Below are positions 22,315 through 39,606 of a stretch of DNA of 64,000 bases, in pieces. Position numbers and translations under genes: made by a program. This DNA comes from G965261475 sp965261475 [NCBI: bacterium] (GTDB lineage Bacteria > SAR324 > XYD2-FULL-50-16): positions 434,001 through 498,000 of the forward strand of contig OZ253454.1 in the NCBI GenBank assembly GCA_965261475.1, in the 5' to 3' direction. Each line of letters begins with the position of its first letter. Position 1 is the stretch's first letter. The notes under the pieces were generated by a model. The model was not told where the DNA came from. It did not search any database and saw only the letters and a list, made by a program, of their open reading frames with translations.

Positions 22315-22388
22315 GGGCCTGTAGCTCAGTTGGTTAGAGTACATCTCTGATAAGGATGGGGTCGATGGTTCAAATCCATCCAGGCCCA
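22315..22388 (+). tRNA. tRNA-Ile (GAU)
   Basis: Acceptor GGGCCTG pairs with CAGGCCC, and the discriminator base is A. The D-arm has GCTCAGTTGG, the anticodon stem CATCT/GGATG holds the loop CTGATAA (anticodon GAT), and the T-arm holds GGTTCAAATCC. 74 bases; CCA is not encoded. Confidence 0.95.
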
Positions 22389-22419
22389 TATCAGCTAAGG
22401 AGTTTACTGCTAAAATTTT

Positions 22420-22493
22420 GGGGGATTAGCTCAGATTGGTAGAGCGTCTGCTTTGCAAGCAGAGGGTCAGCGGTTCGACTCCGCTATCCTCCA
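22420..22493 (+). tRNA. tRNA-Ala (UGC)
   Basis: Acceptor GGGGGAT pairs with ATCCTCC (one G-U), and the discriminator is A. Anticodon stem TCTGC/GCAGA holds the loop TTTGCAA (anticodon TGC), and T-arm AGCGG/CCGCT holds TTCGACT. 74 bases; CCA is not encoded. It lies 31 bases after tRNA-Ile. Confidence 0.95.
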
Positions 22494-22656
22494 CAAGTAG
22501 TATTTCAAAGAGCTAGTTTTTATTGTTTTGCAGATATGTTATAACTTATGAAGTACAATGAGTGTGTTTTTACTAGCTGTATGTCAGTTCAGAGAGTTTG
22601 TAGTGGGAAGAATTAAAATATTTAGATTATTTTAATATTCATGATAAGAAATTTTA

Positions 22657-22728
22657 GGGCGTGTAACTCAGCGGTAGAGTGCTAGCTCGACAAGCTAGTG
22701 GTCGGTGGTTCGAAACCGCCCACGCCCA
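22657..22728 (+). tRNA. tRNA-Val (GAC)
   Basis: Acceptor GGGCGTG pairs with CACGCCC, discriminator A. The anticodon stem CTAGC/GCTAG holds the loop TCGACAA (anticodon GAC), and the T-arm is GGTGG/CCGCC around TTCGAAA. 72 bases; CCA is not encoded. It is separated from tRNA-Ala by 163 bases in which I see no gene. Confidence 0.93.
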
Positions 22729-37814: not shown

Positions 37815-38033
37815 ATGCTTTTAACAGATGAAAATAAAGTTTACAATAGTATTGTAAAAGAGGTTATGTACAGTGCTTTCTACCACTTTAGCAAAATGCA
37901 CTTGCAAAAATATATTGACGAATTTTCTTTTCGTTTCAATAAAAGCAGTTGTAAAATTGATAAGATGGATAAAATAGGGTTACTGATAGTTAAAAGTCAC
38001 TGCTGGCAAAAGACTAACTTAATAAAAGATTGA
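37815..38033 (+). pseudogene. IS1595 (ISXO2-like) transposase remnant, internally deleted
   Basis: 72 codons. The first block (LLTDENKVYNSIVKE) resembles the TDE...Y..I.KE stretch after the second catalytic Asp of IS1595-family DDE transposases. It runs straight into a block (YHFSKMHLQKYIDEFSFRFN) resembling the conserved C-terminal YHHxSKKHLxRYxDEFxFRxN motif. The roughly 40 residues expected between them, including the third catalytic residue, are missing, and no N-terminal zinc-ribbon half is present. It is therefore a non-functional relic. I could not identify terminal repeats. Confidence 0.7.
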
Positions 38034-38043
38034 TTATAGAATA

Positions 38044-39483
38044 ATGGAACAAAAAGAACTAAAAAATCGCAGTATTTTTTGCAGTGATAATTTAGAAGTT
38101 TTAGAAAATATAAATAGCAATACAATAGATTTGATTTATCTTGATCCGCCTTTCAATAAAAAAAAAATATTTACTGCTCCGATTGGTAGTCAAGCAGAAG
38201 GTGCAGAATTTAGGGATATTTTTAGAGCAGAGGATGTAAAAGATGAGTGGCTGCAAACTATCAAGGAAGACAACGAAAAATTGTATAATTTTTTGAATGG
38301 AATAAAAAATATAGATGGCGTAAATTCTTACAATTATTGCTATTTATGCTATATGGCAATTCGTTTGATAGAATGTCACCGCATACTCAAAGACACTGGA
38401 AGTTTGTATTTACACTGCGACCCTACAATAAGCCACTATCTAAAGCTAGTTTTGGGGTGTATTTTTGACGAGAAAAATTTTAGAAATGAGATTGTTTGGT
38501 ATTATACAAATTCAGGAGGTAGAAGTAAAAAATATTATTCTAAAAAGCACGATATTATATTTTGGTATTCTAAAAGTGAAAATTATTTTTTTGACGGCAA
38601 GCAAGACGGGGAAAAAAGACAAGCTGGCATTACTTCTAAAGGAGGTAAAATCTACTATGAGAATGGTAAAAAATATCAACAAATTTGGTCAAATGGAAAA
38701 TCTTACACTTATTGTTTAGACGATGATAGAATAGCAGACGATGTTTGGAAAATTCAACCAATACCTCCCCATTCAGCAGAAAGAACAGGATATCCCACAC
38801 AAAAACCGCTCGCATTACTAGAAAGAATAATAAAAAATAGTAGCAACGAGGGAGATATGGTATTAGACCCATTTTGTGGTTGTGCTACTACCTGTATTGC
38901 TGCCGAGAAATTAGGAAGGCAGTGGATAGGTATTGATGTAAGCAAAAAAGCGTTTGAGTTAGTAAAAGAAAGACTACCAAAAGAAATTCCTAGCGAATTA
39001 TGGAGCGATAAAACTATTTATTTTCAAAAAACAAAAAAACTAAAAAGAACAGATGGAGGAGGTAAGTACGCTATTAAAAAATATGTTTATATTGTCTCAA
39101 ACCCAAGTGAAGCTCCTTACTTGAAAGTAGGAATTGCAAAAAATCTAAAATCCAGATTAAGTAGCTATCAAACGAGTGATAAAGATAGAGCTTATAAATT
39201 AGAATATTCTTATCATACTGAGAATTTTAGAGAAATTGAAAAATACATCCATCAGAGTTTTAATTCTTTAAAAGAATGGGTTAACGCAGAAAAGGAAATG
39301 ATAATTTTTGCAATAGAAAACTACAAAAAAGGAATGAAACCGTCTAAAATTACAGGTTTTGGAGCAAGTGCTATGCCGAAAAAAATAGGTAAATTGGCAG
39401 GCAAGAAGTTAACAAAAGCACAAAAAGACGCAATAAAAAAAGATTTAGGCTCTACTGCTCAAATTAATGATCATAAAAAGTGA
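38044..39483 (+). CDS. DNA adenine-type methyltransferase fused to a C-terminal GIY-YIG-like (T5orf172/MUG113) domain
   Basis: 479 residues. The methyltransferase is class beta: motif IV DLIYLDPPFN (Asp34-Pro-Pro-Phe37) comes first, and the AdoMet-binding motif I VLDPFCGCATTCIAAEKLG (Asp275) comes last, followed by WIGIDVS. The middle (about 100-260), including a QKPLALLERI helix, holds the recognition region. After a linker, residues about 346-440 (KYVYIVSN, YLKVGIAKNLKSRL, and a REIEKYIH helix) fit the T5orf172 branch of the GIY-YIG nuclease superfamily. The gene is 10 bases past an IS1595 relic and has no separate restriction gene nearby. It may be a solitary methyltransferase, a fused restriction-modification enzyme or a regulatory fusion. 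Confidence 0.82.
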   Translation: MEQKELKNRSIFCSDNLEVLENINSNTIDLIYLDPPFNKKKIFTAPIGSQAEGAEFRDIFRAEDVKDEWLQTIKEDNEKLYNFLNGIKNIDGVNSYNYCYLCYMAIRLIECHRILKDTGSLYLHCDPTISHYLKLVLGCIFDEKNFRNEIVWYYTNSGGRSKKYYSKKHDIIFWYSKSENYFFDGKQDGEKRQAGITSKGGKIYYENGKKYQQIWSNGKSYTYCLDDDRIADDVWKIQPIPPHSAERTGYPTQKPLALLERIIKNSSNEGDMVLDPFCGCATTCIAAEKLGRQWIGIDVSKKAFELVKERLPKEIPSELWSDKTIYFQKTKKLKRTDGGGKYAIKKYVYIVSNPSEAPYLKVGIAKNLKSRLSSYQTSDKDRAYKLEYSYHTENFREIEKYIHQSFNSLKEWVNAEKEMIIFAIENYKKGMKPSKITGFGASAMPKKIGKLAGKKLTKAQKDAIKKDLGSTAQINDHKK

Positions 39484-39606
39484 TTTTTATGGTTGTTTTT
39501 GAGAATTTTTGTGCTGTTTAGCCTATAATGACAGTTGATGTAAATGTATATTTTAGCAAAATTATTTGTTAATTTATATTTTTGTAAAGTTTTGTGTATT
39601 CTATCC

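Follow-up and report, generated by a model that had tools for sequence, protein, structure and literature searches.

In the Type IIC/IIG restriction enzymes (e.g., MmeI, Eco57I, BpuSI, and BtgZI), methylation and cleavage reside on one chain and share a recognition module, so that specificity can drift (PMC4081073). Most of these enzymes, as described in that source, combine an N-terminal PD-(D/E)XK nuclease with a gamma-class methylase, and BtgZI is an alpha-class enzyme with a variant PD-(D/E)XK nuclease at its C terminus. Here we analyzed a 64,000-nucleotide stretch of contig OZ253454.1 (the window) from a bacterium of the SAR324 lineage, in which a single open reading frame (ORF; 38044-39483, forward strand, 479 amino acids, ATG start) joins a beta-class DNA methyltransferase to a C-terminal T5orf172 domain of the GIY-YIG type. 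The family to which this gene belongs appears to resemble Type IIC/IIG enzymes in carrying methylase and nuclease in one chain with a shared, evolvable specificity module, but differs from the usual members in being beta-class, with T5orf172, HNH, or Mrr domains at the C terminus. It would therefore work like Type IIC/IIG while falling, by virtue of its beta-class methylase and C-terminal T5orf172 domain, outside the usual group.

R.Hpy188I, R.Eco29kI, and R.Cfr42I are stand-alone nucleases with separate partner methylases, whereas the family considered here is fused and of the T5orf172 type, to which those three enzymes do not belong. They restrict DNA by means of a GIY-YIG fold (PMC4081073), as the family considered here is predicted to do. 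The link between T5orf172 and restriction is not new, as a table of defence families places PF10544 under restriction-modification as "Type III restriction enzyme, res subunit. T5orf172 domain" (PMC7251935); by its wording this entry is a Type III res subunit, and it does not name a fusion with a beta-class methylase. In Lactobacillales, an Slx1-like GIY-YIG nuclease lies behind an N-terminal COG4123 methyltransferase in one chain (PMC1564403), but that methyltransferase carries an NPPY motif, the nuclease belongs to another GIY-YIG branch, and the passages describing the fusion make no mention of transposons or changing specificity. Winged-helix Type IV enzymes combine HNH, GIY-YIG, and PD-(D/E)XK nucleases with one DNA-reading module, a precedent for nuclease exchange (PMC11037411), and a role in recombination has been proposed for T5orf172 in phages (PMC7824862). 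With respect to mobility, tISCpe8 and MTnSag1 have an IS1595-family transposase, 25-bp terminal inverted repeats, 8-bp duplications, and extra cargo; both are described as mobilizable and tISCpe8 as a lincomycin resistance element (PMC5704250), whereas the cargo here is a methylase-nuclease fusion. The literature searched yielded no paper describing a methylase-T5orf172 fusion or IS1595 elements that carry restriction-modification genes, although IS1595 work (Siguier 2009) may already record passenger methylases, and REBASE and ISfinder lay outside the search.

We consider it probable that the gene encodes a one-polypeptide restriction-modification enzyme, similar to Type IIC/IIG, that spreads with IS1595 elements. 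A self-contained system is favored because the chain combines two predicted activities, the putative recognition region is evolvable, both halves are under selection, the nuclease is swapped among relatives, and no recurrent partner was found apart from a transposase. In the mechanism we propose, the N-terminal methyltransferase, with its built-in recognition region (residues ~150-243), would mark adenines in the host's copies of the target, and the C-terminal nuclease, placed by the same region, would cut DNA in which the target is unmarked. As both activities would share one recognition region, new specificities could arise by altering that region alone. The gene family would move at least partly as cargo of IS1595-type transposons, and the window copy stands beside the apparent remains of one. 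The methylated base is presumably adenine, judging from the DPPF motif and the resemblance to M.RsrI and CcrM. Cleavage by the tail, and a role in defence or addiction, are likewise inferred.

The domain structure of the window protein was in agreement with the first-pass annotation, which had been made from the letters of the window and had described a beta-class methylase fused to a T5orf172/MUG113-like tail, with motifs at residues 34-37 and 275. In Pfam, N6_N4_Mtase (PF01555) covers residues 28-309 (E 4.7e-49); the motifs follow the beta-class order (IV, DPPF, then the variable region, then motif I), and the methylase half matches M.RsrI, CcrM, and M.BceJIV at Z 26.6 in structural comparison. 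The profile search that the annotation had proposed for the tail placed T5orf172 over residues 347-419 (E 2.2e-9, 38.2 bits, cut-off 20) and MUG113 (E 1.3e-6, 29.4 bits, cut-off 22.3) above their cut-offs, and the plain GIY-YIG model below its own (E 0.029, 15.1 bits, cut-off 22.6). The decayed IS1595 transposase reported upstream was likewise recovered, as a remnant ORF that covers only the last 33 positions of the transposase domain (PF12762) and ends 10 bases before the ATG of the fused gene. No restriction gene was recognized nearby, as the annotation had stated, among 20 ORFs of at least 60 amino acids between 33 and 45 kb (by reading, with Pfam on 5), and a split system with a nearby restriction gene was rejected on this ground.

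We assessed how common the fusion is among other genomes, and which genes accompany it, as had also been proposed. Scanning a one-genome-per-species collection with the window protein gave 80 loci, and a local profile comparison found the methylase-T5orf172 layout in nine ORFs from 8 of them; altogether, 34 further ORFs with the same fusion were collected, some of them partial. Among the neighbors of 31 T5orf172-tailed loci and the window (129 ORFs of at least 80 amino acids, methylases removed), the IS1595 transposase was the only family common to more than two loci (five loci), and three other families were each common to two. Two neighboring ORFs were noted by eye: one of 160 amino acids (L043:2503-2982) that looks PD-(D/E)XK-like, directly upstream of a T5orf172-tailed methylase with an internal shortening and running into its start, and one of 843 amino acids that resembles a Type I methylase or restriction subunit (L038).

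Selection differed strongly between parts of the protein. Median ratios of nonsynonymous to synonymous substitution (dN/dS; Nei-Gojobori, pairs with dS 0.05-1.5, pairs being non-independent and the middle-region alignment uncertain) were 0.124 (31 pairs) and 0.132 (35 pairs) for the methylase cores, 0.129 (42 pairs) for the tail, and 0.836 (50 pairs) for the middle region. By this measure, the tail is constrained as strongly as the methylase cores, indicating purifying selection. Mean identity of the window protein to its relatives was 0.25 in the middle region versus 0.69 and 0.78 in the flanking cores. Tandem copies in two loci (L038 and L228) show the same partition, with tail blocks 96-100% identical, cores 77-100% (apart from one core block of 53% in L038), and middle regions 17-50%. 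Mean identities within five same-genome sets were 0.80-0.90 for cores, 0.74-0.87 for the tail, and 0.24-0.44 for the middle. The middle region (~150-243) is accordingly labeled here as the putative recognition region, which it is taken to be from these comparisons, and constrained halves flanking a diverging middle are the pattern expected if specificity changes while both predicted activities persist.

The nuclease half appears to be exchangeable. C-terminal tails of the methylase relatives clustered into 40 HNH, 10 T5orf172 (window included), 3 Mrr-type, and 6 single tails, with 19 ORFs having tails shorter than 40 residues and 14 set aside for a missing motif. Pfam run on ten chosen proteins confirmed HNH in 3, Mrr_cat in 5, and T5orf172 in 2; a strict HNH pattern fits 31 of the 40 HNH tails, and the remaining 9 deviate, some by changed zinc-site or HNH letters. 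Judged by these assignments, one methylase chassis bears three predicted nuclease folds, namely T5orf172 (GIY-YIG), HNH, and Mrr-type PD-(D/E)XK. An RTD linker precedes 34 of 40 HNH tails, 8 of 10 T5orf172 tails, and none of the 3 Mrr tails, suggesting a swap point just after RTD that is common to the HNH and T5orf172 classes.

In a midpoint-rooted tree of 53 methylase domains (tails excluded; ORFs with E above 1e-30 were left out, as were another 11 that were short or lacked a motif), all T5orf172-tailed rows lie within one 12-row branch (support 100/97) adjoining HNH-tailed rows, and the Mrr rows lie across the root. Strict monophyly of the T5orf172-tailed rows was rejected (approximately unbiased test, p 0.009) because three untailed rows fall inside the branch; two of these (L047 and L054) end at contig ends, and the third (L044) has truly lost its tail. 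Members of the branch come from Spirochaetota, Bacteroidota, and Pseudomonadota, a spread suggestive of horizontal transfer. Phage DNA methylases of PHROG 67 belong to the same methylase family (E 8.2e-61), yet the recognized tails of relatives in viral contigs were Mrr or HNH: 115 methylase ORFs of 116 loci (36 loci from one scan and the best 80 of 522 relatives from a second) comprised 76 with Mrr, 3 with HNH, none with T5orf172, and 36 without a recognized tail, and a viral T5orf172 form may exist beyond this set. A phage origin of the fused gene was rejected, given that no T5orf172-tailed viral relative occurred in the scanned loci and that no phage or plasmid record covering 80% of the query in one place was found.

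We examined the tail for nuclease residues in an alignment of 35 rows (34 ORFs, some partial, and the window protein), the catalytic tyrosine, arginine, and glutamate being assigned by sequence position. Y349 and K361-V362-G363 were invariant (35 of 35), as were Q376, D379, and R382; R371 was kept in 31 of 35 rows (lysine in two, asparagine in two), E399 and H403 each in 34 of 34, E411 in 32 of 33, and W412 in 33 of 33. The window protein retains Y349, K361-V-G363, R371, E399, H403, E411, and W412. The first-pass annotation had suspected a degenerate GIY-YIG part from the KVG at the YIG position; a degenerate nuclease tail is rejected, KVG being the family norm, and a lysine stands in place of the YIG tyrosine also in R.Hpy188I, an accepted member of the GIY-YIG superfamily (PMC2630997). 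It had further held that occurrence of the fusion elsewhere without nuclease residues would speak against a role in defence; the fusion does occur elsewhere, and nearly all members keep these residues. Structure prediction of the tail on its own gave block means of 87-98 over fragment residues 21-110 and a beta-beta-alpha-beta-alpha-beta-alpha order. VIA comparison with the 354 solved chains of a Foldseek ranking put Slx1 GIY-YIG nucleases in the first seven places (Z 7.1-6.2, 82-91 residues; best match Z 7.1 over 91 residues at 3.2 A) and I-TevI in the eighth (Z 4.5), with UvrC at 3.6 among unrelated chains. In a viral model library, the tail matched proteins of the T5orf172 and GIY-YIG types, with E values as low as 1.2e-7.

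The association with IS1595 was assessed by searching five transposases against 2.18 Mb of family loci (window included); these loci are centered on the methylase with varied and often short flanks, so the counts are not a genome-wide rate. Of the 24 transposase places that the search found, 22 had a family ORF no more than 700 bp away, and after removal of six duplicate copies 16 of 18 distinct places lay within that distance. The remaining two belong to L086, which has a second transposase, and to L092, where the transposase adjoins a truncated methylase. The latter (L092:3-827) is divergent to the truncated gene at a contig end, perhaps reflecting insertion into the gene. By tail class, an IS1595 transposase lay within 700 bp of 7 of 45 HNH-tailed, 5 of 34 T5orf172-tailed (the window ORF counted among the 34, its remnant being missed by this search), 2 of 72 Mrr-tailed, and 1 of 15 untailed ORFs. 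In 12 of 16 listed cases the transposase lies upstream in the same orientation, an arrangement also seen in the window; in 4 it lies downstream on the other strand.

Inverted repeats outside both genes were sought for 11 transposase-methylase pairs, each compared with 100 two-base-block shuffles. Repeats exceeded the shuffles in eight (L219, L220, L086, L088, L089, L125, L058, and L063), narrowly so in L220 (score 15 versus 14), and none did so in L168, L188, or L043. Terminal repeats were identical over 44 of 44 bp in L086 and 31 of 31 in L089, and several start with GGGAATTATATAC. Target duplications of 8-10 bp accompanied four of the eight repeat-bearing elements (L086, L089, L058, and L063), against a background of 13 in 1600 random boxes in the same loci, and were not found in L125, L088, L219, and L220. 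Transposase and methylase genes together take up about 2.2 of the 2.6 kb of the L063 element, and in L089 the methylase is split across two ORFs. Going by these sequence features, IS1595 elements hold family relatives as apparent cargo, and by analogy the window copy presumably arrived by the same route.

The T5orf172 fusion is rare in the sampled genomes but multi-copy where present. Counting the seed genomes, 4 of 296 genomes passed the threshold in the phylum of G002 (Spirochaetota), where T5orf172 tails occurred only in the two seeds and HNH tails in the other two. By order, the figures were 2 of 291 for that of G001 (one new), 2 of 6 for that of G007 (only the seed T5orf172-tailed), and 8 of 109 for that of G005 (six new), and wider samples of the phyla of G007 (1 of 398) and G001 (1 of 395), with at most 4 candidates scored per genome, each returned only the seed. 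At least five T5orf172-tailed copies were present in each of two genomes. Among the nine seed genomes, the Poribacteria-labeled G009 and G008 (genomes of L051 and L049) had 23 and 14 methylase-family matches, and the matches listed end before the T5orf172 part.

A broader proposal, to which we give somewhat less than an even chance, is that these are two-gene transposons, consisting of a transposase and a one-chain restriction-modification enzyme whose nuclease is a swapped plug-in (HNH, PD-(D/E)XK, or T5orf172) and whose recognition region diverges separately from it. One-chain restriction enzymes would then gain a new class in the T5orf172 branch, and restriction-modification would be the payload, perhaps an addiction module, moving between Spirochaetota, Bacteroidota, and Pseudomonadota. 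If this is true, restriction-modification fits one gene of about 1.3-1.5 kb that is moved by a two-gene transposon and has an exchangeable cutting half. Restriction specificities would then have a tangible means of spreading, the T5orf172 family would have a functional context open to testing, and a natural series would be at hand for asking how one methylase positions three unrelated nucleases.

Several observations weigh against a mobile one-chain restriction-modification enzyme. The second tyrosine of YIG is replaced by K361 in all 35 members, the Z values of the tail are modest (below 8), Foldseek against PDB gave no significant solved match (best E 0.26), and the tail profile against PDB sequences reached only a conserved hypothetical protein (best E 0.53). 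Related methylases are kept without a nuclease tail in L044 and L053, indicating that the methylase can be retained alone. Of 25 strongly conserved tail positions, 4 are changed in the window protein, a larger share than in any other member, though none of the listed catalytic ones is affected; the window tail averages 0.50 identity to relatives, below both cores, and carries an unexplained C-terminal extension. Second in divergence is L201, changed at 4 of 27 conserved tail positions; it has R371K and E411G. As to the transposon, the places adjoining the family are a non-random sample because the loci are methylase-centered, among T5orf172-tailed genes only the five counted above and that of L236, which is split by a stop, were found near a transposase, and every element with duplications is HNH-tailed, the T5orf172-tailed L219 and L220 having repeats only. 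At the window copy, a repeat search returned only AT-rich pairs that we took to be at chance level, and a scan for the end motif of the relatives (up to 3 mismatches) gave one weak match inside a neighboring gene. Comparison lends support to the first-pass annotation's idea of a compact modification-restriction gene that a mobile element carries or adjoins (nuclease swaps, selection on the tail, the diversifying middle, and IS1595 cargo in relatives); around the window copy itself, a transposase remnant was found but no element ends. Despite its divergence, the window copy may still be active.

Whether defence or addiction drives the spread bears on one alternative, which is compatible with the enzyme proposed here and which we regard as unlikely: the gene would be a selfish stabilizer of IS1595, its methylase protecting the cell and its nuclease killing cells that lose the element, with defence as a by-product. 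Elements bounded by inverted repeats and target duplications agree with such a role, as do the transposase places mostly adjoining the family in the examined loci and the many family copies per genome (e.g., 23 and 14 matches in two of the nine seed genomes), but no transposase was found near most members, and varied foreign DNA as the selecting agent would explain the diversifying middle region equally well or better. Spread may be driven by either.

A solitary methyltransferase whose T5orf172 tail merely binds DNA or targets the enzyme, with no cleavage, seems improbable to us. That reading would account for the lysine at the second tyrosine, for the untailed L044 and L053, for a window tail that diverges more than its cores, and for the viral library's label of T5orf172 proteins as "DNA-binding domain-containing"; it has difficulty with the tyrosine, arginine, glutamate, and histidine retained at nuclease positions in nearly all members, and with the HNH or Mrr nucleases that replace the tail in relatives. 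A lysine at the same place in the restriction enzyme R.Hpy188I (PMC2630997) further weakens it.

The tail could also act as a homing or transposition helper, cutting target DNA for the element instead of restricting, which we judge very improbable. Homing enzymes often contain GIY-YIG or HNH domains, and the transposase association would suit a helper, but the Mrr tails match a restriction-endonuclease family, several tailed genes have housekeeping-type neighbors and no transposase within the flanks examined, and we know of no need for a second nuclease in IS1595 transposases. The modification-dependent (Type IV-like) nuclease also raised in the first-pass annotation is likewise very improbable here, since, although a methyl-adenine reader fused to HNH, GIY-YIG, and PD-(D/E)XK nucleases is known (PMC11037411) and CMoRE, a GIY-YIG Type IV enzyme consisting of one component, protects against T-even phages (PMC12923530), nothing was found in its favor at this locus, Pfam detects no reader domain in the window protein, and with an apparently intact methylation writer as its partner such a nuclease would attack the DNA of its own host.

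Positions of the fused gene, its parts, and the adjoining transposase remnant in the window
Feature	Position	Strand	Basis
Fused gene: beta-class DNA methyltransferase and C-terminal T5orf172 (GIY-YIG) domain	38044..39483	+	ORF reading, Pfam
Motif IV DPPF, methyltransferase catalytic motif, residues 34-37	38143..38154	+	At least 97% conserved in fused relatives
Variable region, residues about 150-243, putative target-recognition domain	38491..38772	+	Identity, dN/dS, tandem-copy differences
Motif I DPFCGCATT, S-adenosylmethionine (AdoMet) site, residues 275-283	38866..38892	+	Sequence and alignment
Linker with R335-T-D, residues 330-345	39031..39078	+	RTD counts across tail classes
T5orf172/GIY-YIG domain, residues 346-420 (Y349, K361-V-G363, R371, E399, H403, W412)	39079..39303	+	Pfam, conservation, predicted fold, structural matches
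Basic C-terminal extension, ~51 residues (429-479)	39328..39480	+	Alignment, low model confidence
IS1595-family transposase remnant, C-terminal end only	37815..38033	+	PF12762 E 1.6e-6; NF033547 E 8.4e-6 (below its cut-off)

The model shows little order in the C-terminal extension of the window protein, for most of which the aligned relatives have no counterpart. Its origin as a fused small downstream ORF was unsupported (best E 0.23-0.49, to the ORF after L219). Small basic ORFs with a shared start follow the T5orf172-tailed genes of loci L221, L227, and L230, in two related genomes (G659 and G660). The scanned genes flanking the fused gene are metabolic (creatininase, PfkB kinase, and a molybdopterin-type dehydrogenase subunit, by Pfam), and G+C over the gene (0.29-0.34 in three windows) showed no clear difference from its surroundings (0.29-0.38). 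The GyrB protein of the window is closest, among solved structures, to the long DNA gyrase B chains of the E. coli type, and its best match in 16 genomes, to G659, reaches 45% identity; taken alone, this would hint tentatively at a low-G+C gammaproteobacterium. Elsewhere in the window, no rRNA family match was obtained, an imperfect 28-bp tandem repeat occupies 39539-39594 in the AT-rich gap downstream of the gene, and tRNA-Ile, tRNA-Ala, and tRNA-Val are clustered at 22315-22728.
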